From NCBI GenBank assembly GCA_002255935.1, contig NKIO01000005.1, positions 1-64,000 of the forward strand: DNA of 64,000 bases. Reading direction: 5' to 3'. This DNA is from Comamonadaceae bacterium PBBC2. GTDB lineage: Bacteria; Pseudomonadota; Gammaproteobacteria; Burkholderiales; Burkholderiaceae_C. Below, piece after piece: positions 3,025 through 54,360 of this stretch. Position 1 is the stretch's first letter; every line of letters begins with the position of its first letter. Made by a program: the position numbers and the translations under genes. The notes beneath the pieces are model-generated. The model saw only the letters and a list, made by a program, of their open reading frames with translations, was not told the origin of the DNA and did not search any database.

Positions 3025-3793
3025 GGGCCCCCTCCAGCTGGTTGTCGGTGGTGCCCATGTAGGCTTCGAGCACTTGGGGGTTTTGCGACACCACGGCGTA
3101 AGGTCCTTCTGCAATCACTTGTCCGCGCTGCAAAACACTGATGGTGTCTGCAATTTTGGACACCACATTCATGTTGTGCTCCACCATCAAGATGGTGCGG
3201 TTGGCACCCACTTTTTTGATCAGTTGCGTCACGCGGTCCACGTCTTCGTGGCCCATGCCCTGGGTGGGCTCGTCGAGCAGCATCAACTCGGGGTCCATGG
3301 CCAAGGTGGTGGCAATTTCCAAAGCGCGCTTGCGGCCATAAGGCAGCTCCACCGCGGTCAGGTCGGCCATGCTGCCCAGATCGACTTGGTCGAGCAGGTC
3401 CATGGCCTTGTCGTTGAGCTGGTTCAGGCTGCGTTCAGAGCGCCAAAAGTGCATCGAAGTGCCCGTGGCCCGTTGCAAACCGATGCGCACGTTTTCCATG
3501 ACCGTGAGGTTCGGAAAGGTGGCCGAAATCTGGAAAGACCGCACAATGCCGCGCCGCGCCACCTGCGAGGGTTTTTCGGCCGTGATGTCGTTGCCGTTGA
3601 ACACAATCTGGCCCTTGGTGGGGATCAGAAATTTCGTCAACAGGTTGAACACCGTGGTTTTGCCTGCACCGTTGGGGCCAATCAAGGCATGGATCTGCCC
3701 ACGCTGGACCCCCAGGTTGACGCCGTTGACGGCGACAAAGCCCTTGAACTCTTTGACGAGCTCACGGGTTTCGAGAATGAAATCTTTGGACAT
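3017..3793 (-). CDS. livG: HAAT ABC transporter ATP-binding protein LivG
   Basis: This 258-residue ABC ATPase has a canonical P-loop (ALIGPNGAGKTTVFNLLT), a RRGIVRSFQI Q-loop region, a modified signature (LPYGRKRALEIATTLA in place of LSGGQ), Walker B LMLLDEPTQGMG and the switch histidine in ILMVEHNM. It is the first liv gene on the minus strand. The gap to the upstream SDR gene is 162 bp, so the liv genes could have their own promoter or be read through from the catabolic genes. Confidence 0.93.
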   Translation of the reverse strand: MSKDFILETRELVKEFKGFVAVNGVNLGVQRGQIHALIGPNGAGKTTVFNLLTKFLIPTKGQIVFNGNDITAEKPSQVARRGIVRSFQISATFPNLTVMENVRIGLQRATGTSMHFWRSERSLNQLNDKAMDLLDQVDLGSMADLTAVELPYGRKRALEIATTLAMDPELMLLDEPTQGMGHEDVDRVTQLIKKVGANRTILMVEHNMNVVSKIADTISVLQRGQVIAEGPYAVVSQNPQVLEAYMGTTDNQLEGAHG

Positions 3794-6451: not shown

Positions 6452-7420
6452 TTATTGTTTGGGAATTTTGGCGTCGTTGACGACCTGGATCCATTTCTGG
6501 GTCTGGTTGGCCACCATGGTTTTCATCTCTTCGGGTGTGCTGCCCCGCACCTCGCCGCCCATATCTTCCAGGCGGGTTTTCACACCCGGCACCACCAGCG
6601 CTTTTTGCAGCTCGGCGTTGAGGCGGTCGATCACAGGGCGGGGTGTGCCTGCAGGCGCCATCAGGCCGGCCCACGAGCGCACGTCGTAAGCGGCCACGCC
6701 TTGCTCGGCCACGGTGGGCACATCGGGCATGCCCGGCCAACGCTGCGGCCCTGTGGTGGCGATCGCGCGCAATTTGCCCGCCTTGATGTTGGCCAACACC
6801 GCAGTCGGCGGCGCAATGATCATGGGGATGTCGCCGGCCAACAAAGCCGTGACCGAACCCGAATCGCCTTTGTAGGGCACGTGCAGCAGCTGGGTTTTGG
6901 ACATGCTGGACAGCAACTCGCCCGCCAGGTGATGGGTCGAGCCGATGCCGGCTGTGCCGTAACTGATCTCCGTCGGGTTGGCTTTGGCCGCGGCCAGCAA
7001 GGCCGACAAATTGGCGAACTTGCTGTTGGCGGGCACCACGATCAAGAAGGGGAAATACGTGATGGTGCTGACCATCTCGAAGTCTTGCACTGTGCGGTAA
7101 GCCAGGTTGTTGTACAGCGCCCCTGCCACTGCGTGGCCACCGGTGGCCAAGAGCAAGGTGTAGCCATCAGGCTTGGCCTTGGACACGGTGGTGGCCGCAA
7201 TGGTGCCGCCAGCGCCGGCTTGCGCTTCGACCACCATGGACTGGGCCAGGCCCTTGCTCATTTCTTGGCCCACGGCGCGGGCAATCGCGTCGGCATTGCC
7301 GCCTGGGGCAAAGCCTTGAAGAATTTTGATCGGGCGATCGGGATAGGTTTGGGCCCCAGCCTGAAAAGGCATGGCCAGCGATGTGGCGCTCAAAGCGATG
7401 AGCAATTGTCTGCGAAGCAT
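6452..7420 (-). CDS. Bug-family (tripartite tricarboxylate transporter) substrate-binding protein
   Basis: This 322-residue periplasmic protein starts with a Sec signal peptide (MLRRQLLIALSATSLAM, cleavage after AGA) and continues YPDRPIKILQGFAPGGNADAIAR, the hallmark of Bug/TctC proteins. The APAGTPRPVIDRLNAEL motif near the C-terminus is also typical. The start at 7420 is supported by AGGAGAC 4 nt upstream. Most Bug proteins in Burkholderiales are orphans without TctAB permeases, as here, and bind carboxylates or aromatic acids. The neighbours suggest it captures the substrate degraded by the adjacent enzymes. Confidence 0.9.
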   Translation of the reverse strand: MLRRQLLIALSATSLAMPFQAGAQTYPDRPIKILQGFAPGGNADAIARAVGQEMSKGLAQSMVVEAQAGAGGTIAATTVSKAKPDGYTLLLATGGHAVAGALYNNLAYRTVQDFEMVSTITYFPFLIVVPANSKFANLSALLAAAKANPTEISYGTAGIGSTHHLAGELLSSMSKTQLLHVPYKGDSGSVTALLAGDIPMIIAPPTAVLANIKAGKLRAIATTGPQRWPGMPDVPTVAEQGVAAYDVRSWAGLMAPAGTPRPVIDRLNAELQKALVVPGVKTRLEDMGGEVRGSTPEEMKTMVANQTQKWIQVVNDAKIPKQ

Positions 7421-16608: not shown

Positions 16609-20399
<3,791 letters not shown>

Positions 20400-20408
20400 T
20401 TTTTCTTG

Positions 20409-20433
20409 GCCCAACGTAACGCCATCGTTGGGC
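20409..20433 (+). terminator. Hairpin after gyrB, weak terminator
   Basis: An 8-bp perfect stem GCCCAACG / CGTTGGGC lies 9 bp after the gyrB stop. It is followed by TGAAGCTTTT rather than a clean U-run, so termination may be partial. Confidence 0.4.
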
Positions 20434-20458
20434 TGAAGCTTTTACAAGCCAGAAAGCG

Positions 20459-20485
20459 AAAAGCCCCGATGAACCCACCGAGGCT
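20459..20485 (-). terminator. Possible second terminator on the minus strand
   Basis: On the minus strand AGCCTCGG and TCGGGGCT (20485-20478 with 20469-20462) form an 8-bp stem with two G-U pairs and an 8-base loop, followed by TTT then CGCTTT. It lies downstream of the stronger terminator at 20548. The remaining bases of 20434-20547 show nothing else recognisable. Confidence 0.35.
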
Positions 20486-20547
20486 GTAGCGCCGACCGGG
20501 AACCCCCAATCCACTTGAGCGCGAGTTTAAAACAAAAACGAGCGGCT

Positions 20548-20573
20548 AAAAAAAAGGGGCCCTTGCAGGCCCC
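20548..20573 (-). terminator. Strong Rho-independent terminator on the minus strand
   Basis: On the minus strand the stem GGGGCC / GGCCCC (20573-20568 with 20561-20556) with a 6-base loop is followed by eight T residues (20555-20548). No intact gene ends just before it, so it implies a transcript from the DUF3427 remnant or from a small RNA. Confidence 0.75.
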
Positions 20574-20700
20574 GGTGGGATCCTATTGACCAGACAAGCC
20601 GGGGTTCAGATCCGATATGCATCGTACCCCGATTAATGGCATTTTGGCAATCCGTGGTTCTTGAACCGAGGTGAGTTCCCCGCCAGCCATTGCCCATAGA
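20548..20700 (-). ncRNA. Candidate structured small RNA ending in the terminator
   Basis: No protein is evident here, but the minus strand has a series of foldable segments. GGCAAT (20694-20689) pairs with ATTGCC (20651-20646) and encloses a GGTT/AACC hairpin. CGGGGT (20631-20626) pairs with ACCCCG (20605-20600) and encloses CGAT-ATGC-ATCG. The terminator hairpin follows. It does not match 6S, SRP, tmRNA or RNase P RNA by eye. The 5' end is unknown. It could equally be the 3' end of the DUF3427 transcript. Confidence 0.3.
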
Positions 20701-20726
20701 GCTGGGTGGCTTAGGTGAAGGCTTGT

Positions 20727-21089
20727 TCAATCAAGAGGGCTTGAGCCCACTGCCGCATCCAGCCCAAACACAATGCTCATGGGCCTGCTGCCCTGGTGCG
20801 ACTGGTAGCGCACCCGGCCGTGGTACGTGAACGGTGCCGCCTTGCCAGCGGTCAGCTTGGTGTCGCGCACAAAGAGGTGGATGTCGATTCCTAAAGCGGC
20901 GTGGCGAATGATTTCGTCCCCGCGTTTGCTGGTCGGGTCGGTGGCGTTTTGGCTTTGCCAGTGAAAGTGCGTGTCATCGATCCAGTGGTCCATGTACTTG
21001 TGCTTGTCAGCCCGGCCTTGTTTGTTGAGTGTGACCAGCAGGATGTGCGCCTTTTTCTGGGGCACCCCAACAAAGCCAACTGAGAACAT
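20727..21089 (-). pseudogene. C-terminal remnant of a DUF3427-containing protein
   Basis: The 120-residue frame matches only the last part of DUF3427, a domain found at the end of large helicase or restriction-like proteins. Matching stretches are ILLVTLNKQG, THFHWQSQN, IHLFVRDTKL and PFTYHGRVRYQSHQGSRPMSIVF. The frame begins abruptly at MFSVGFVGVPQKKAH, inside the domain, and nothing upstream (21090-21193) continues it in any minus-strand frame. I read it as a relic of a larger accessory gene. It lies back to back with the nuclease-helicase gene at 21194. Expression as a short protein cannot be excluded. Confidence 0.6.
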
Positions 21090-21193
21090 TGCGTTGCTAA
21101 CTCAGGTGGTTGAGGATCAAGCAGGCATCCCTGAATCACCATCAATCCGTTTAAGATCATCTGAATTTAAAAAATAAGCACTTTAGGTAACAC

Positions 21194-23182
21194 GTGCAAT
21201 ATTCCAATCGTTCGTTTTATGCGGCACCCATCTCGCAATTCGTGACCACAGAACCCAGCTTGGTGCTTGGCGTCCTGACCGATATGAGCGGATTTTCGAT
21301 CGAGACGACCCAGCGCGATGCATGGCGTTCACAGATCCAAATTCTGCAGCCAGCGCTGAAGGCCTTTGAAGGCCGGGGCACGGTTTTCTTTGAGTTCATC
21401 GTGCCGCGTTTGGGCAAACGCATCGACGTACTGGTTTTGATCGATCACGCTATTTTTGTCATCGAGTTCAAGGTGGGGGAATCGTCTTTCAACCGTGCTG
21501 CAGTTGATCAGGTTTGGGACTACGCGCTTGACCTCAAAAACTTTCACGAAACCAGCCATCACTGCGTGATTGCTCCCATTTTGATTGCTACGCAAGCAAA
21601 AGGCATCAGCGGTCAGATCGTCACCAGCCACCACAACGACGGTGTGCTCTACCCCATCAACACATCACCCGCGTTCTTGGCCTCCACCATCGAAGATGTG
21701 TTGACGTTTTCGTCGGGCGCCCAACTGGATGCATCCTCTTGGGCCAACGGGCGTTACCGTCCCACTCCCACCATCATCGAAGCCGCGTCCGCGCTTTACG
21801 GCAACCACTCTGTGGCTGAACTCTCTCGCAATGATGCAGGGGAGAAAAACTTGGCACAAACTTCGGTTGCCATTGCGCAACTGATCCAAGAGTCAAAGCA
21901 ACGGAAGCAAAAGGCCATTTGTTTTGTGACGGGTGTTCCCGGTGCTGGCAAGACTTTGGTCGGCTTGGACATTGCCACTAAGCACATGGACGCTGAGAGC
22001 GATTTGCACAGCGTGTACCTATCGGGCAATGGCCCTTTGGTGGCAATTCTGCGTGAAGCCTTGGTGCGCGATGAAGTGGCCCGAAAGAAAGCCGTGGGTC
22101 AAAAGTTGCGCAAAGGCGAAGCCAGAAAAGCCGTTGAAGCCTTCATTCAAAACGTCCACCATTTCCGCGATGCGTATTTGTCGGACGAGCGGCCGCCAGT
22201 GGACCACGTGGTGATCTTTGATGAAGCGCAGCGCGCTTGGACGCTGGAACAAACCACCCAGTTCATGGCCCGCAAAAAGGGCTACCCAGACTTCAACCGC
22301 TCCGAGCCCGACTTCTTGATTTCTTGTCTTGACCGTCACCCTGACTGGGCCGTGGTCGTTTGTTTGGTGGGCGGTGGTCAAGAGATCAACACGGGTGAGG
22401 CGGGCATTGGCGAGTGGCTCAAGGCCATTCACGAGCACTACCCCGATTGGGCGGTGCACATCTCGCCGCACCTTCAAGACTCAGAGTACGGTGCAAACGA
22501 AGCGCTGACGCAGCTGAAGTCGCGGGACAACGTTCACCACAACGACGATCTGCATTTGTCGGTGTCCATGCGTTCCTTCCGTGCTGAGCACGTGTCCACC
22601 TTCGTGAAGCATTTGTTGGACCGAAATACCAACTTGGCAAAAGACATGTTCCAAGAGGTGCAGGCGCGCTATCCGATCGTGGTGACCCGCGATTTGGACA
22701 AGGCCAAGCGATGGCTCCGTGACAAAGCTCGGGGCAGCGAGCGCTTCGGTATGGTCGTTTCTTCGCAAGCGGTTCGCCTGCGCCCACATGCCATCGACGT
22801 TCGGTCGCCCATGGACCCCATCCATTGGTTTTTGGATGACCGCGATGACGTGCGCTCGTCTTATTATTTGGAAGACGTCGCTACCGAGTTTCACGTTCAA
22901 GGCCTTGAGTTGGATTGGGCTTGCGTGGTGTGGGATGCCGACCTGCGCTTTGGCGAGGCCGATTGGGAATACCGTTCGTTTGTGGGCAACAAATGGCAAA
23001 AAATACATCTGTCCCATCGCCAGATGTATTTGAAAAATGCCTATCGGGTCTTGCTTACCCGCGCTCGCCAAGGCATGGTGATCGTGATCCCGCCCGGTGA
23101 TCCCGAGGATCCCACCAGAGACCCATCTTTTTATGATCCCATTTTTGGTTATTTGACCTCTTTAGGTATTCACGCTATTTGA
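21194..23182 (+). CDS. Nuclease-helicase fusion: N-terminal PD-(D/E)XK-like domain plus DUF2075 SF1-type helicase
   Basis: This protein has 662 residues. The N-terminal part has [20 protein letters not shown] (about 77-96), an Asp followed by E-x-K as in PD-(D/E)XK nucleases. The rest is a superfamily 1-like ATPase of the DUF2075 type: Walker [18 protein letters not shown] (about 240), Walker [49 protein letters not shown], and motif [22 protein letters not shown]. The GTG start at 21194 follows TTTAGG. Such proteins sit in variable islands and may act in DNA restriction or repair; defence is inference from the accessory context. Confidence 0.85.
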
Positions 23183-23188
23183 TTGAGC

Positions 23189-23620
23189 TTATGCAATGGA
23201 ATCGCCGCTTAAGGGATCCTTGAGTTTGGCTTGCCTCCGCAATTCGTTCGGCCTGATGTTTTGCCTGAAAGTGTCGGGTGGCCTGAAGCATTCTTCGGGC
23301 GTCACCATGTAGACGGTCCAATCGCCGTATAGCTTGCCGTCAAAGCTGAGCAGGTCACCGTTGATGGCCAAGTCCATCTGCATGTCGTGGGTGCCTGTGA
23401 ACAGTTGGGCATCTGTGGGGCTGACAAATTCCACATTCACCGAGCAGACGTAGGTGGTGTGAAAGTACCTGAGCGGCCCAATGGCCGGACCATCAAAGCC
23501 CCAGCCGTGCATGACTTGGTTGGGTGTATCGCGGCCATGAAACAGGCCCAGATACAAGCCGGGCTTGCTGGGGCGAACGCCATAAACGGGCGTGGTGCTT
23601 GGGTCTGTTTCGGGGTTCAT
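23189..23620 (-). CDS. Hypothetical protein
   Basis: I do not recognise this 143-residue protein. The start at 23620 follows a good GGAGGC leader, and the product begins MNPETDPSTTPVYGVRP. It has no signal peptide or membrane segment. It is rich in Gly, aromatic and acidic residues: PGLYLGLFHGRD, GWGFDGPAIGPLRYFHTTYVC, and a SFDGKLYGDWTVYMV stretch, which suggests a small soluble beta-rich fold. It is convergent with the nuclease-helicase gene, with only 6 bp between the stops. Confidence 0.7.
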   Translation of the reverse strand: MNPETDPSTTPVYGVRPSKPGLYLGLFHGRDTPNQVMHGWGFDGPAIGPLRYFHTTYVCSVNVEFVSPTDAQLFTGTHDMQMDLAINGDLLSFDGKLYGDWTVYMVTPEECFRPPDTFRQNIRPNELRRQAKLKDPLSGDSIA

Positions 23621-23755
23621 GTTGCCTCCATGTGAGTGAGGCAATCAGCTTAAGTAAAGGGTGCGGCATTGTGTACCAGGGCTTTGCCTGGGGTGCGCTG
23701 GGTTATTCAAAAGCTCGGTAGTGGATGGCGACAACTACGACCTGTGTGACCTCAT

Positions 23756-23770
23756 TGGCATAACATGCCA
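23756..23770. promoter_or_regulatory. Inverted repeat upstream of parD, candidate operator
   Basis: TGGCAT-AAC-ATGCCA is a perfect 6-bp inverted repeat 26 bp before the parD start codon, where a ribbon-helix-helix antitoxin would repress its own promoter. The rest of 23645-23796 shows nothing recognisable. Confidence 0.45.
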
Positions 23771-23796
23771 TTCCTGTTTCAAGAAGGAGCTCTCCC

Positions 23797-24078
23797 ATGC
23801 CCACCCGAAATGTCGTGCTGACAGATCACCAAGCTGCGCTGGTCGAGCAGCTGGTCCAAAGTGGCCGCTATCAAAATGCCAGCGAAGTTCTGCGTGAGGG
23901 GCTGCGCATGGGGGAGCAGCGAGACGCCGAGGACGCTTATCGACTTGCGGCTTTGCGAAAAGCAGCTCAAGAGGGCATGGCCGATATTGACGCGGGGCGT
24001 TTCAAGACTTTTGAATCCAAGCAAGGCTTGCGCGATCACCTGCAGGGCATTGCTGCCAAAGTACCTACTGACCAATGA
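23797..24078 (+). CDS. parD: Type II antitoxin, ParD family
   Basis: This 93-residue protein has the N-terminal ribbon-helix-helix of ParD (RNVVLTDHQAALVEQLVQSGRYQNASEVLREGLRM) and an acidic C-terminal tail with DIDAGRF that would wrap the ParE toxin. An AAGGAG leader precedes the ATG. Its stop overlaps the ATG of the former toxin gene (ATGA at 24075-24078). The partner is broken (next feature), so the antitoxin is now an orphan. Confidence 0.9.
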   Translation: MPTRNVVLTDHQAALVEQLVQSGRYQNASEVLREGLRMGEQRDAEDAYRLAALRKAAQEGMADIDAGRFKTFESKQGLRDHLQGIAAKVPTDQ

Positions 24079-24211
24079 GTCCGGTAAGGTCAGTTGGGTT
24101 GGCAGAAAAGGCCGACATTTGGTGGTTTTCAGGATGGCGGACGGTCAAACCATCGATGTCATCCGCTTGCTTCATGACAGCATGGATTTGGCCAAGCATT
24201 TGCCGGATTAA
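24075..24211 (+). pseudogene. parE: parE toxin remnant with internal deletion
   Basis: The start codon and first codons (ATG AGT CCG GTA AGG, coding MSPVR) are in place after parD. The following bases belong in another frame (codons from 24074) to the last ~35 residues of a ParE toxin: GRKGRHLVVFRMADG then IDVIRLLHDSMDLAKHLPD. About 50 central codons with the substrate-binding core are missing and the two ends are out of frame. The toxin cannot be made. Confidence 0.75.
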
Positions 24212-24239
24212 GTCGGCGGCTGTTGATATCGGTTGACGA

Positions 24240-24917
24240 TCATTTCAGCCCATCCACCACCATCACCCCCCGCAGCCCCACCCCAAAACTCTTGAACCCT
24301 TGCGCATCCCAGTGGGCGCTGCTGTCGATGCTGTCGTGTTGGTGGCCGTGCACCGTGGTGTGCACGCCCATGCGGCGGGCCAGTGTGTCCAGCTCTTCAA
24401 AGCCATAGGCGTGGTAGCCGGGGGCTTCGTGCGTGATCAAGATGTCGGCTTCTTGGGCGGCCAGTTGTTCCACTTCGTCGGGGTAGATGCTGGACCAGTG
24501 TTTCAGGTGTGCGCTGCCTTGCCAGCGGTCTTGGCGCGGGGTGTTGCGGGCGTGTTCGTCGCGGTTGCGGTAGTGGGCTGGGCGCCTGTTTTTGGGGTAC
24601 CACACCGCGCCGCGAAACACGCCGCCCAGCCCGGCAATGCGTGTGCCGCAGGGCAGCGTGACCACGCGGCCATGGATGTGCCGCTCGGCCAGCTCGGGGT
24701 GCCACACGTTGGCAAAGGTGTCTTCGCTGTCCGTGTCGTGGTTGCCGTGGATGAACCAGACGCGGTCCCAGATGGCCTCCAGCTCCACGTGCAGCGGCCG
24801 CGCAGGCTCCAGGTCGCCCAGCAAGATGACGGCGCGGGCGAGGGTTTGCAGGGCGGCATCGATGATGTGCTGCCATTGGCCGTGCGGGTCGCCGCAGAAG
24901 AGGATGGGGCCGGTCAT
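24240..24917 (-). CDS. Metallophosphoesterase (calcineurin-like)
   Basis: This 225-residue protein has all metallophosphoesterase motifs in order: GDPHG (residues 9-13), GDLE (about 34), GNHD (about 58), a His in THEAPGYHAYG (about 163) and GHQHD (about 190). These bind two metal ions that hydrolyse phosphoesters. There is no signal peptide, so it is cytoplasmic. It begins 20 bp after the fitB toxin gene on the same strand and is probably translated from the same mRNA. The substrate is unknown. Confidence 0.87.
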   Translation of the reverse strand: MTGPILFCGDPHGQWQHIIDAALQTLARAVILLGDLEPARPLHVELEAIWDRVWFIHGNHDTDSEDTFANVWHPELAERHIHGRVVTLPCGTRIAGLGGVFRGAVWYPKNRRPAHYRNRDEHARNTPRQDRWQGSAHLKHWSSIYPDEVEQLAAQEADILITHEAPGYHAYGFEELDTLARRMGVHTTVHGHQHDSIDSSAHWDAQGFKSFGVGLRGVMVVDGLK

Positions 24918-24937
24918 GTGTGCGCAGCTTGCGGCGG

Positions 24938-25363
24938 TCAGTGTTGAACTGTCCAGGGGTTGATCACGGCAACACCCGCTGCTTCAAAGGGGCTGGCGTC
25001 GCGCGTGGCCACCATGAAGCCATGGCGCTTGGCTGTTGCGGCGATGTAACCGTCAGCCGTCGAGATGGCTCGGCCCTGGGCGCGTGCTGTCGATAGGATG
25101 TCTGCATAGGCCTGAGATGCGCTGGCGTCAAAAGGCAGGATTCGATCTGCGAAAAGGGGCAGGATGCGTCGCTCTAGGCCCAGGTGCAGCGTCTCTTTGC
25201 GTTTGCCCGTTGGCAGGGCTGCGATGCCAAAGCGCAATTCGGCCAGGCTGATGGCGGACAGGTAAAGGGTGTCGATGGATTGCGCGTCGATCCACGCCAA
25301 AACGCCCGCGTCTGCTGACAACTTCAGTGGCTCCGAGATGACGTTGGTGTCGAGCAAGATCAT
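24938..25363 (-). CDS. fitB: PIN-domain toxin, FitB/VapC type
   Basis: This 141-residue protein has the PIN-domain acidic residues: D5 in LLDTNVISEP, E42 in LSAISLAELRFGI, the acidic residue in STADGYIAATAKRHG (about 102) and TRDASPF (about 120). This family consists of Mg-dependent RNases that cut tRNA or rRNA. The LAELRFGIAALPTGKRK stretch is typical of FitB. Its ATG overlaps the fitA stop (ATGA), the usual coupling of antitoxin then toxin. Confidence 0.92.
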   Translation of the reverse strand: MILLDTNVISEPLKLSADAGVLAWIDAQSIDTLYLSAISLAELRFGIAALPTGKRKETLHLGLERRILPLFADRILPFDASASQAYADILSTARAQGRAISTADGYIAATAKRHGFMVATRDASPFEAAGVAVINPWTVQH

Positions 25364-25599
25364 TCGAACCTCATGGGTTCTGCGGGTGTTGGGTCGCGCT
25401 CCATATTCAAGTCAAAGCCGCCCGCTTGTTGGCCAATTTCGGCCAGCAGAGATCCCAGTTGGATGCGCCCTTGAGGGCGTGCGGCTTGCTCCAGAATGGC
25501 GCGCACTTCGGCCTCTGTGCTGCGGCCCGCCAAGGCGGCACGCTGTCGCAGAGCTCTGTGGGTTTCTTCGGGCAAGTTGCGGATGGTGATGGATGACAT
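25360..25599 (-). CDS. fitA: FitA-type ribbon-helix-helix antitoxin
   Basis: This 79-residue protein has an N-terminal ribbon-helix-helix (MSSITIRNLPEETHRALRQR then AALAGRSTEAEVRAILEQA) that binds DNA. The C-terminal tail has an Arg that would block the FitB active site. It is first in a fitA-fitB-metallophosphoesterase unit and lies opposite a paired palindrome at 25626-25653. Confidence 0.9.
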   Translation of the reverse strand: MSSITIRNLPEETHRALRQRAALAGRSTEAEVRAILEQAARPQGRIQLGSLLAEIGQQAGGFDLNMERDPTPAEPMRFE

Positions 25600-25625
25600 G
25601 GCAGGGTCTCCTGATTGACGCCAAA

Positions 25626-25653
25626 TGATATCAATAAATAAATTTTGATATCA
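25626..25653. promoter_or_regulatory. Tandem palindromic operator upstream of fitA
   Basis: Two copies of the palindrome TGATATCA (25626-25633 and 25646-25653) are separated by 12 bp, giving a 20-bp centre-to-centre distance (two helical turns). They lie 27-54 bp from the fitA start. This is the geometry expected for FitA dimers bound to an autoregulatory site. Confidence 0.65.
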
Positions 25654-25705
25654 AAACTTGTTTTGCGAGTGGCAGCATGCTCATGGCAGTGAAAGCCGCC
25701 ATTGG

Positions 25706-25727
25706 TGGTGTTTACAAGGTAACACCA
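25706..25727. promoter_or_regulatory. Inverted repeat upstream of the RHH/ParE pair, candidate operator
   Basis: TGGTGTT and AACACCA form a 7-bp inverted repeat around TACAAGGT, 33 bp before the antitoxin start. It is distinct in sequence from the fitA operator on the other side of the same intergenic region. Confidence 0.5.
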
Positions 25728-25759
25728 TTTCATATAATCAATGAAACAGGAGCCTCAAA

Positions 25760-26062
25760 ATGCCGACCTTCTCTGTCAAATTAGACGAACAATCCCGAGC
25801 CAAGGTGCAAGCTGCGGCCAGCCAACGTGGTGTGACGCCGCACGCCTTCATGGTGCAGGCCATTGAGTTGGCCGTGACTCGCTCCGAAGAAGAGGACGCT
25901 TTGGTTCAGCGTGCTTTGCAGGCGCGGCAAAACCTGCTGCAAACAGGCATGGTTGTGGATGGAAGTGCAATGGCCGAATACCTGAAAGACAAGGTGCGAG
26001 GCGGCACGCGCAAGCGACCTGCGGCACAAGGGCTTGAGCAGTTCCTGGCCCCGCGGTCATGA
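25760..26062 (+). CDS. Ribbon-helix-helix antitoxin paired with a ParE-type toxin
   Basis: This 100-residue protein starts TFSVKLDEQSRAKVQAAASQRG then HAFMVQAIELAVTR, which fits an RHH DNA-binding dimer. The C-terminal half is charged and basic at the very end. A CAGGAG leader precedes the ATG. The stop overlaps the toxin start by 4 bp. The family name of this antitoxin is not obvious to me. Confidence 0.8.
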   Translation: MPTFSVKLDEQSRAKVQAAASQRGVTPHAFMVQAIELAVTRSEEEDALVQRALQARQNLLQTGMVVDGSAMAEYLKDKVRGGTRKRPAAQGLEQFLAPRS

Positions 26063-26349
26063 CGCGACTGGTGCATTCTCCGGAGGCGGCTGACGATCTC
26101 GAGGAGCTGGTAGATTTTTTGTTGGTAAGTCGACCTGAACACGCGGTTGAAACGGTGGACTTGGTGCTGGATGCTTTGTCAGTGTTAGAGCGCCATCCGT
26201 TGATGGGACGCCCTGTGGCACAGGGTATGCGCGAGCTCGTGATTTCACGCGGAAGATCGGGTTATCTGGCGCTGTATGCTTTTGACGCCGCAGCCGATGT
26301 GGTGTTCGTGTTTGCCATCAAGCACCAGCGTGAACAAGACTATCACTGA
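26059..26349 (+). CDS. RelE/ParE superfamily toxin
   Basis: This 96-residue protein has the ParE/RelE core: SPEAADDLEELVDFLL at the N-terminus, ERHPLMGRPVAQGMRELVISRGRSG in the middle, and the C-terminal VFVFAIKHQREQDYH strand with KHQRE. It is full length, unlike the parE remnant at 24075. ParE proteins poison DNA gyrase while RelE members cleave mRNA; the sequence favours ParE. Coupling to the antitoxin by ATGA is clear. Confidence 0.88.
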   Translation: MTRLVHSPEAADDLEELVDFLLVSRPEHAVETVDLVLDALSVLERHPLMGRPVAQGMRELVISRGRSGYLALYAFDAAADVVFVFAIKHQREQDYH

Positions 26350-26355
26350 AACCCC

Positions 26356-26946
26356 ATGACCTCTATCGCCGTCATCGACTTCGAAACCACGGGCATTTCG
26401 CCCCATATGGGCGACCGCGCCACCGAGGTGGCCATCGTCATGCTCGAGGGCGGTCAGGTGGTGGACCGTTACCAGAGCCTGATGAACGCGGGGGTGCGGG
26501 TCAACAGTTTCATCACCCAGCTCACCGGCATCACCAACGAGATGGTGCAGGCCGCGCCGCCGGCCGAGCAGGTCATGCGCGAGGCGGCCCGCTTTGTGGG
26601 CGGGCGGCCCATGGTGGCGCACAACGCGGCCTTTGACAAAAAGTTTTGGCAGGCCGAGTTGGCCCGTTGCGGCGAAGACGGCGCACATCCGTTTGCCTGC
26701 ACCTTGCTGTTGTCGCGCCGCCTGTACCCGCAGGCGCCCAACCACAAGCTGGGCACGCTGGCGGCCTTGCACCATTTGCCGTCGTCAGGCCGTGCGCACA
26801 GGGCCTTGGCCGATGCCGAGATGGCCGCGCATTTGCTGGCGCAGATGCAGCACGACCTGAAAACCCGCTACGGCTGCAGCCAGGCCGACCACGCTTTGCT
26901 GATGGGCCTGCAACGCACCAGCCGCCAGATGGTGGGGCCGTATTGA
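26356..26946 (+). CDS. DnaQ-like 3'-5' exonuclease
   Basis: This 196-residue protein has the three DEDDh exonuclease motifs: VIDFETTG (Exo I, residues 6-13), VAHNAAFDKKF (Exo II, about 85) and HRALADAEMAAHLL (Exo III, about 145). It lacks the rest of polymerase III epsilon and is a stand-alone DnaQ family exonuclease that could act on DNA or RNA. It starts 6 bp after the ParE-like toxin. Confidence 0.9.
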   Translation: MTSIAVIDFETTGISPHMGDRATEVAIVMLEGGQVVDRYQSLMNAGVRVNSFITQLTGITNEMVQAAPPAEQVMREAARFVGGRPMVAHNAAFDKKFWQAELARCGEDGAHPFACTLLLSRRLYPQAPNHKLGTLAALHHLPSSGRAHRALADAEMAAHLLAQMQHDLKTRYGCSQADHALLMGLQRTSRQMVGPY

Positions 26947-45429: not shown

Positions 45430-46578
45430 TTAGGCTGAGCCGATGCGCTGGAACAGCCCGCCGGGCAAGCGCCCTATTTGTCCCATCAATTCCAGCTCCA
45501 ACAACTGCGCTTGCAATCGGGCCGTTGGCCAGCCGCAGCGCGCTTGCAGGGCATCGAGCCCCACCGGGTCGTGGCCCATGTGTTGCAGCAAGGCATCTTC
45601 GCTGTCCGCCTCGGTGCTGGCGGCATCGAGTGCCAGTGGCACCTGCGCAAACGGATCGGGCAGGCGCAGCTCTTCGAGCACGTCTTGTGCCGACTCCACC
45701 AGCTTGGCGCCTTGCTTGATCAGGGCGTGGCAGCCTTTGGCCTGCGCCGAGTGGATGGAGCCGGGAATGGCCAGCACGTCGCGCCCTTGTTCAATGGCCT
45801 GTTTGGCGGTGATCAATGAGCCCGATTGCAGCGCGGCTTCCACCACCAAGGTGGCTTGCGATAAGCCAGAAATCAAGCGGTTGCGCTTGGGGAAGTTGGC
45901 GTTCAGCGGCGGCGTGCCCAGGTGGTATTCGCTCAGGATCAGGCCGCGCTGGGCGATGCGGTGCGCCAGCTCGCGGTGCTGGCGCGGGTAGACCCGGTCT
46001 AGGCCCGTGCCGACCACGGCGATGGTGGCCAACGCTTGGGGCCCAGCGCCCAGCAGTGCGCCATCGTGCGCTGCGCCGTCGATGCCCAGCGCCATGCCTG
46101 AGACGATGGTCAGACCGCTGCTGGCCAAGGCGCGGGCAAATTCACGCGCATTGGCCTGGCCTTGGGGGGTGGGGTTGCGGCTGCCCACCATGGCCAGTGA
46201 GTGTTCGGCCTTCAAGTTTTGCAGCGCTGCGGTTTGCCCCAGCGCATAGAGCATCAAAGGCGGATCGGGGATGAGCAGCAAGGGCGCAGGGTAGTCGGCA
46301 TCGCCCAGCGTGACCAGCGCGCAAGTGGTGTCGGCAGACGGTGGGTTTTGCAGCCATTCCCAGGTCTCCTGGGTGAGTTCGGCCCAGCCGTCGGGCAGGC
46401 TGGCCAGTTGCCGGGCCTGCGCGGCCGAGACCACTTGCCGCAAGGCCGATTCGCTTTGTGCAAAGACCTGCTCGGGCTGGCCAAACGCGGCCAGCAGTTT
46501 GCGTGCGCCTTCGTTGCCAATGCCGCTGGTGAGCGACAGTCGCAACCACGCGCCAAGTTCTTCGGGGGTGTCCACCAT
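45430..46578 (-). CDS. dprA: DNA-processing protein DprA
   Basis: This 382-residue protein has the N-terminal helical part (LGAWLRLSLTSGIGNEGARKLL) and the Rossmann-like DprA core: LAMVGSRNPTPQGQANAREFARAL, SGMALGIDGAAHDGAL, TGLDRVYPRQH and SEYHLGTPPLNANFPKRNRLISGLS. DprA loads RecA on incoming single strands during transformation. The start at 46578 is preceded by GGGAGAC. A C-terminal winged-helix region (DALLQHMGHDPVGLDALQ) is present. The organism may be naturally competent. Confidence 0.95.
   Translation of the reverse strand: MVDTPEELGAWLRLSLTSGIGNEGARKLLAAFGQPEQVFAQSESALRQVVSAAQARQLASLPDGWAELTQETWEWLQNPPSADTTCALVTLGDADYPAPLLLIPDPPLMLYALGQTAALQNLKAEHSLAMVGSRNPTPQGQANAREFARALASSGLTIVSGMALGIDGAAHDGALLGAGPQALATIAVVGTGLDRVYPRQHRELAHRIAQRGLILSEYHLGTPPLNANFPKRNRLISGLSQATLVVEAALQSGSLITAKQAIEQGRDVLAIPGSIHSAQAKGCHALIKQGAKLVESAQDVLEELRLPDPFAQVPLALDAASTEADSEDALLQHMGHDPVGLDALQARCGWPTARLQAQLLELELMGQIGRLPGGLFQRIGSA

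Positions 46579-53202: not shown

Positions 53203-54360
<1,158 letters not shown>

Follow-up and report, generated by a model that had tools for sequence, protein, structure and literature searches.

Closest described systems

The general frame for the locus described here is provided by recombination hotspots that lack mobile elements (2017; PMC5635113). The locus lies directly after gyrB in the window, which is the whole stretch of 64,000 nucleotides analysed (positions 1 to 64,000 of contig NKIO01000005.1 from Comamonadaceae bacterium PBBC2), and extends to an exonuclease gene; judged from its closest relatives, the window belongs to the genus Limnohabitans. The locus shares with those hotspots a high turnover between fixed core genes and discordant identity and, within the tyrosine integrase search described below, the lack of a recognisable integrase; it differs from them in that the spot directly after gyrB shows an inner slot, tails of displaced genes that are probable anchors, and scars consisting of copied tails. 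In freshwater Limnohabitans, defence and toxin-antitoxin genes appear to be swapped and stacked after gyrB, leaving these gene-tail scars behind.

Other systems are close in different respects. The hotspots cDHS1 and cDHS2 of Pseudomonas aeruginosa likewise have fixed core borders, variable length and varied defence content, and are not evidently one mobile element, while their borders are other genes; in the present spot toxin-antitoxin pairs are prominent and a slot for like-for-like swaps is resolved (PMC10250203). As in a core defence hotspot, several defence systems (PDC-S41, mREase_IV-like and others) occupy the one site across strains. The nearest described parallel is how type VI secretion system (T6SS) effectors are displaced in Vibrio cholerae, a process proposed to involve homology-facilitated illegitimate recombination (PMC5361080; also PMC9711863). 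The effector-immunity arrays of that species and strings of Rhs orphan 3′ ends resemble the present locus in the homologous anchor on one side and the proposed illegitimate join, and also in the leftover pieces that stand in strings with older content displaced outward (PMC5361080). Unlike those arrays, the cargo here is restriction-like and toxin-antitoxin, and the leftovers are gene tails, not immunity genes.

Two protein families are also relevant. The type IV restriction enzyme SauUSI has the architecture PLD, ATPase and DUF3427 (PMC3874153), and the full gene displaced at the present locus has PLD, ResIII helicase and DUF3427, but adds an N-terminal methyltransferase and an S24-peptidase-like domain. 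The PDCs of PADLOC are guilt-by-embedding candidates (PMC10855318); the window gene agrees with PDC-S41 in a full-length profile match, and what differs is the repeated gyrB-proximal position seen here. Among the matches listed from the open-licence PMC literature (titles and abstract openings), no description of a gyrB-adjacent defence spot in Limnohabitans was recognised.

Variability between gyrB and the exonuclease gene

The sequence-only reading had taken 20400–26349 for a single accessory island and had asked whether close relatives lack it. Its accessory gene content is as described there, and the region is indeed variable; it is better viewed, however, as a spot varying across the genus, and probably beyond it, than as one island. 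The genus set comprises 60 genomes including the window's own, which is also included in the family count of 150 and the order count of 399, and 21 colinear loci were compared, namely those of 18 genus genomes (window included) and of the named records T6-20, MMS-10A-192 and Jr-14may18-69. Genes in the relatives were called with a simple script, not a standard gene finder. The distance from gyrB to the exonuclease gene ranges from 232 bases in genome G029 to 44,650 in G067, with 5,956 in the window and a median of 6,652, and none of the 20 other colinear loci repeats the gene set of the window. Counted at no less than 70% length, the 143-amino acid (aa) gene of the spot is present in 13 of the 21 loci, PDC-S41 in seven, FitAB in six, ParD1 in five and RHH-ParE2 in three. 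Directly after the gyrB stop, 16 sequence classes were found among the 30 loci with 300 bases available, loci being put in one class where no fewer than 150 bases align in register. When the whole stretch was searched at the DNA level, 24 of the 59 other genomes of the genus had matching pieces, variously combined. Since lengths, gene sets and after-gyrB classes all vary, the region is a hotspot without tyrosine integrase and not one fixed island: variable content between conserved core genes, as in the hotspots lacking mobile elements.

The right border is an exonuclease gene with an ortholog of at least 71% identity in 36 of the 59 other genus genomes, although border searches gave no ortholog in a divergent group (gyrB DNA about 82%). 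In the assemblies of G007, G022, G026 and G027 the two border genes are separated; the exonuclease-side block of G022 and G026 still has a 59–62 base gyrB tail at its left side.

Identities change from module to module. For example, MMS-10A-192 is 95.3% identical to the window in gyrB, 94.6% in the phosphoesterase, 84.8% in the DUF3427 tail, 87.9% in the SLFN gene and 76.7% in the 143-aa gene. G034 has only 90.4% in gyrB, yet 93.9% in the tail, 90.1% in SLFN and 92.9% in the 143-aa gene. By these identities, the modules in the spot are mosaic. In G072, the nearest by gyrB (96%) among the genomes searched, full DUF3427, HNH, Fic and other genes occupy the place of PDC-S41. That the spot holds ordinary vertically inherited genes can therefore hardly be maintained: the metallophosphoesterase and exonuclease genes are near-constant, but the set of the window is missing from the 20 other colinear loci, the gap of G029 spans only 232 bases, and the identities are discordant with gyrB, so that this explanation is refuted for the cargo.

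Further cargo includes Fic, HipA with helix-turn-helix, HNH, C5 methylase and DUF2357-PD-(D/E)XK_7 genes, a DndD/PbeC-like piece, and an AbiEii-like gene barely above cut-off. Some observations on individual loci may be added. The 44.65-kb version of G067 (L029–L031) harbors several copies of palindromic repeats of about 75 bases in both orientations. A protein at L053:4260–5315 has an unusual combination of MarR-like, histidine-kinase-like ATPase and STAS-like DUF4325 parts, and its cluster occurs in three spot loci. Record L074 is titled Akkermansia muciniphila but corresponds to the Limnohabitans-group locus of G014, indicating a binning or naming error, and the title of L096 names Klebsiella pneumoniae.

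A swap slot inside the spot

One slot in the spot, bounded by a DUF3427 tail on the left and by the 143-aa gene on the right, holds alternative modules predicted to target DNA. In G024, used as the reference, a 1,292-aa gene on the minus strand runs toward gyrB, with an HNH gene and the 143-aa gene on its far side; its domains are methyltransferase, PLD, ResIII helicase, S24-like and DUF3427. Nine of ten PDC-S41 loci leave this reference at 2773–2779, inside the last 350 bases of the big gene, and G080 has PDC-S41 without the left DUF3427 tail. All ten rejoin the reference at 7202–7227, the 3′ end of the 143-aa gene, and the N-terminal part of the big gene is absent from all ten within the available stretch. 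Because of these shared junctions and the missing N-terminal part, the DUF3427 relic of the window is the tail of a displaced type-IV-like restriction gene. In the window, PLD, helicase and DUF3427 do not occur in one protein as in SauUSI; only the DUF3427 tail is present, about 20760–21080 being homologous to full-length genes. The remnant recognised from the sequence alone is a C-terminal piece, and comparison adds what is invisible from the window alone, that it is a recombination scar and a probable anchor of the swap slot.

The slot has other occupants. The full DUF3427 gene is found in G024, G072, Jr-14may18-69 and HM2-2, the last being cut by the end of the locus. In G008 and G027 the occupant is an SLFN helicase of 31% identity on the opposite strand, joined at 2912 and 7083–7092. 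Five loci (G067, G032, MsE-01oct19-88, G083 and G021) leave the reference at 3093–3373; beyond this point G067 has a C5 methylase and G083 a DUF2357-PD-(D/E)XK_7 protein. Furthermore, HipA modules of G021, G025, G028, G067 and G083 carry a DUF3427 tail cut near the position corresponding to window 21013–21021, with HipA itself truncated in G025 and only part of the tail left in G067. Copied tails of both gyrB (see below) and DUF3427 stand at borders between modules.

The DUF3427 tails belong to two lineages, about 86–88% alike. Two PDC-S41 tails, those of G028 and MMS-10A-192, share 96.6 and 97.0% identity with the full-length gene of G071, which has an open frame of 1,301 aa, and about 86% with other PDC-S41 tails, while those of the window and six other PDC-S41 loci are 96.3–98.3% identical to the full-length gene of G072. 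As the same PDC-S41 junction occurs with either lineage, a crossover inside the tail is the simplest explanation, and the tails recombine. G028 has three tails on as many different modules, all of the G071 lineage, and G083 has four, all of the other, as if tails within one genome were kept alike.

Alternatively, the short DUF3427 gene might be a working reader subunit beside interchangeable nuclease engines and not a relic; in SauUSI, DUF3427 has been proposed to recognise the target (PMC3874153), and the nine PDC-S41-linked copies have no stop. The ratio of nonsynonymous to synonymous substitutions (dN/dS) of these copies is 0.113 (28 pairs from eight copies, that of G076 being missed by the motif) against 0.164 for full or C-terminal genes (36 pairs), which at first supported a selected short gene. 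This support was undone by a control: four tags of 29–55 codons, below domain size, gave dN/dS of 0.06–0.18 without stops or indels, and the low ratio thus reflects recent copying or renewal, not function. Moreover, no DUF3427 C-terminus was found near PDC-S41 in 29 loci of other genera (E ≤ 1e-3), and the PDC-S41 of G080 stands without a tail. A reader subunit is therefore very improbable.

Copied gyrB tails

Copies of the gyrB 3′ tail were found in G014, G007, G022, G026, G067 and G083. In G014, an 82-base copy of the gyrB end lies 913 bases past gyrB, and the 600 bases behind it match the after-gyrB DNA of G077 from base 1 (94.8%) and of G017 from base 3 (94.5%). The copies of G022 and G067 are likewise followed by 600 bases that match stretches of G076 and G008 whose starts are no more than 12 bases from the gyrB stop (90.7–93.6%); for the copy of G026 the matching stretch is only 145 bases (86.9 and 79.3%). 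In all of these four genomes new DNA is placed between gyrB and the copied tail, and the copied tails mark insertions adjoining gyrB.

One-sided homologous entry would give this pattern, and so would attachment-site integration. In the latter case, elements would use the last 58–82 bases of gyrB as attachment site, with an integrase lost or acting in trans; gyrB would be restored on entry and a copied tail left at the far end of the element. The layout, gyrB followed by new DNA, gyrB tail and former neighbour, is as such integration predicts, and tails of 58–62 bases recur in G022, G026 and G067 behind one shared preceding sequence. On the other hand, the copies are of different lengths (58–62, 82, 110 and 535 bases), the same style of scar is seen at DUF3427 tails, and PF00589, the tyrosine integrase family, has no match on the locus in any of the eight colinear-locus genomes among the 15 scanned, a search to which serine recombinases, transposases and attC did not belong. 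No tRNA that could serve as integration target is present in the window. Because copy lengths vary and no tyrosine integrase was found on the locus in the eight genomes, one-sided homologous entry is favoured, and site-specific integration is considered unlikely.

PDC-S41 and the DNA after gyrB in other genera

The PD-(D/E)XK/DUF2075 protein predicted from the window sequence corresponds to PADLOC PDC-S41 (E 5.8e-289 over 5–661 of 662 aa), its DUF2075 part being an SLFN-g3 helicase (PF09848). An alignment of 18 sequences shows no variation at D78, E91, K93, 247–254 (GVPGAGKT) and D343-E344. With the full-length profile and both nuclease and helicase motifs present, the gene is intact in the window and a candidate nuclease-helicase defence gene, whose anti-phage activity would be expected from its family. 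The structural model has a predicted local distance difference test (pLDDT) value of 73.9, and the top Foldseek matches are human SLFN11/14, with E of about 4e-6 and a template modelling (TM) score of only about 0.2.

PDC-S41 was detected in 14 of 149 other family genomes (E ≤ 1e-100) and in 18 of 399 order genomes (E ≤ 1e-80), the latter including the window and one genome already counted; 30 carriers lie outside Limnohabitans. Flanks of 8–10 kb were examined for most carriers, and less at contig ends. In six carriers (G195, G185, G412, G094, G127 and G526), PDC-S41 is located at 28, 54, 117, 228, 377 and about 1,200 bases from gyrB, measured between match ends, and a seventh, G146, has it at 7.6 kb. 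By our own arithmetic, about 0.02 carriers would be expected within 1.2 kb of gyrB. On the protein tree the gyrB-adjacent state requires four changes (4–5 in bootstraps; shuffled mean 8.7), which means repeated arrival or repeated loss. An arrangement in G215 (L243:8238–11160), where PDC-S41 lies about 390 bases after an exonuclease homologue and far from gyrB, suggests that the two can travel together. Among 72,556 plasmid records, four contain a match to PDC-S41 (E ≤ 1e-40), and among 50,697 phage records one does (E ≤ 1e-20); none of the five reaches 60% identity, and no recent plasmid or phage source is seen in those records.

Beyond the genus, 73 other genomes matched gyrB strongly, of which 40 were chosen by rank and contig room; without G131, which offered 415 bases and was excluded, the set is 39 family genomes from 37 genera. 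From these, 225 proteins no shorter than 80 aa and with their start within 6 kb after gyrB were scanned with PADLOC, and the family tables cover, from the top, 25 of 121 and 25 of 129 families. Five of the 39 genomes have the exonuclease homologue after gyrB, at about 0.5–7 kb, and Wadjet, type I restriction, CARF and methylase genes follow gyrB in other genera among the matches listed, a result obtained without control. Ten after-gyrB proteins were also scanned singly, three of which have a match at E ≤ 1e-50. As no control region was scanned, an enrichment of defence genes in post-gyrB DNA beyond the genus is not claimed; the spot probably has an older counterpart in other Burkholderiales.

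PDC-S41 might reside near gyrB for a functional reason, e.g., if it senses the state of gyrase or the origin, or gains from early replication. Six gyrB-proximal carriers of 30 and the four tree changes would fit such a role, but 23 of the 30 have no gyrB inside 10 kb or inside the available stretch, and the orientation differs, being convergent in G412 and G526. The presence of Wadjet, type I restriction and CARF genes after gyrB elsewhere further indicates that the spot may favour any cargo. A functional address is thus rather improbable.

Proposed route of exchange

Taken together, the region from gyrB to the exonuclease gene is read as a recombination hotspot without tyrosine integrase for defence and toxin-antitoxin genes in Limnohabitans, in which we infer exchange anchored in gene tails; we put the chance that this reading is correct at roughly two in three. 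The mechanism would be homologous recombination, sometimes with one illegitimate end. DNA of a related strain would enter, perhaps via natural transformation; the ComEC family is present in six of six genomes, and a gene at 45430–46578 is presumably DprA-like. The incoming DNA would pair by homology with a shared gene tail. If its other end joins the next shared gene, a module would be cleanly swapped, and if it joins illegitimately, a stacked insert with a copied tail would result. Tails renewed in this way would serve as anchors for the next exchange.

Several points weigh against this reading. What is seen of the putative exchange is module-level discordance of identity and the tail lineages. 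The spot is not purely for defence, since it also has metabolic cargo: FGGY kinase/DAO (glpK/glpD-like), ADH/esterase, P450/thiolase/AMP-ligase and TRAP genes. Only 41 of its 127 gene clusters were put to the family library, some without a match, some genomes are draft metagenome-assembled genomes, and the integrase search has the scope given above. No after-gyrB match from base 1 follows the 110-base copy of G007, the 535- and 59-base copies of G083 or two small pieces of G067, and the 58–62 base copies of G022, G026 and G067, sharing their preceding sequence, may be one event that resembles attachment-site duplication. PDC-S41 may be interrupted in G034, where the gene caller splits it into 140 and 512 aa.

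A tentative extension would see here an integrase-free capture locus, in which the 3′ tails of gyrB and of a displaced restriction gene act as renewable anchors, functionally analogous to integron attachment sites. Strains of this planktonic genus would use them to swap and stack entire defence and toxin-antitoxin modules next to the origin, and gene conversion would keep the tails of a genome alike and the locus exchangeable. For comparison with integrons, the PF00589 result applies again, a tyrosine integrase being unmatched on the locus and attC not searched. This extension is possible, though clearly less probable than the tail-anchored hotspot as such.

Genes of the window

The features between the two border genes are listed in Table 1. 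Genes beyond the exonuclease gene presumably form a Tad cluster, and the open reading frame (ORF) at 53203–54183 is, from the start of its sequence, what we take to be an IS110-type transposase. The window assembly (G000) is 95.28% complete with 8.74% contamination in 144 contigs, and the window contig is consistent with relatives.

Table 1. Features from gyrB to the exonuclease gene (RHH, ribbon-helix-helix; SLFN-g3, Schlafen group 3); positions are those of the window.
Feature	Position	Strand	Basis
gyrB, left border of the spot	17802–20399	+	ORF
Intergenic folds resembling terminators	20400–20726	.	no Rfam match; folds
DUF3427 3′ tail, relic and probable left slot anchor	20727–21089	-	PF11907 positions 159–264 of 280, E 1.1e-17
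PDC-S41, predicted PD-(D/E)XK nuclease and SLFN-g3 helicase, present slot occupant	21194–23182	+	PF09848 E 6e-83; PADLOC
143-aa protein without family, probable right slot anchor	23189–23620	-	no Pfam match
ParD antitoxin without intact toxin	23797–24078	+	PF03693, TIGR02606
Broken parE, C-terminal piece	24079–24211	+	PF05016 58–88 of 89, below cut-off; alignment with G034, G032, G060
Metallophosphoesterase	24240–24917	-	PF00149
FitB-like PIN toxin	24938–25363	-	PF01850; phmmer E 1.1e-45 to solved FitB 2h1o
FitA-like RHH antitoxin	25360–25599	-	PF22513
RHH antitoxin, second pair	25760–26062	+	PutA_1st RHH E 7e-4, below cut-off; precedes ParE
ParE/RelE-type toxin, full length	26059–26349	+	PF05016 E 1.3e-11; 7etr E 1.4e-11
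DEDDh exonuclease gene, right border of the spot	26356–26946	+	ortholog comparison; DEDDh from PADLOC matches of homologues

Three toxin-antitoxin loci had been predicted in the island, and three are present, of which FitAB and RHH-ParE look intact and one ParD is orphaned. In alignment, parE1 is about 196 bases shorter than in G034 and G032 and has lost its frame, so that no intact toxin is left in the ParDE locus; by visual reading of the alignment, a 14-base direct repeat marks the site of the deletion, and G060 has the identical loss. The overlap of the RHH antitoxin gene with the PIN toxin gene is that of FitAB/VapBC pairs. In the second pair the toxin has a full-length ParE fold, while the profile match of the antitoxin stays below cut-off. 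Judging from their families, these pairs would function as toxin-antitoxin systems. The metallophosphoesterase, which had also been counted as accessory, is present as described but belongs more to the backbone than to the cargo, being near-constant in the spot (19 of the 21 colinear loci at ≥70% length). The 143-aa protein has no profile family and no PDB sequence match, and its model (pLDDT 71.5) has no PDB fold match at E ≤ 0.001.

A possible RNA after gyrB, also proposed from the sequence, was rejected since 20390–20760 has no Rfam match even at E ≤ 1 and the folds are near shuffled values. The four folds in the gap between gyrB and DUF3427 (z-scores -0.2 to -1.9) resemble terminators belonging to gyrB and to the DUF3427 side. 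The same gap contains a short element within 20430–20546, whose core (20478–20518) was found by pattern search in six of the 60 genus genomes, window included, and within about 3 kb of gyrB in five of these six.

Significance

Defence genes turn over fast, and the route of their exchange is seldom visible at integrase-free hotspots. Here the scars reveal the displaced gene, the position of the join and, partly, the order in which modules arrived. PDC-S41 becomes a testable candidate with a repeated gyrB address, and the DNA right after gyrB, beside the origin, is a recurring home for accessory genes in Burkholderiales.

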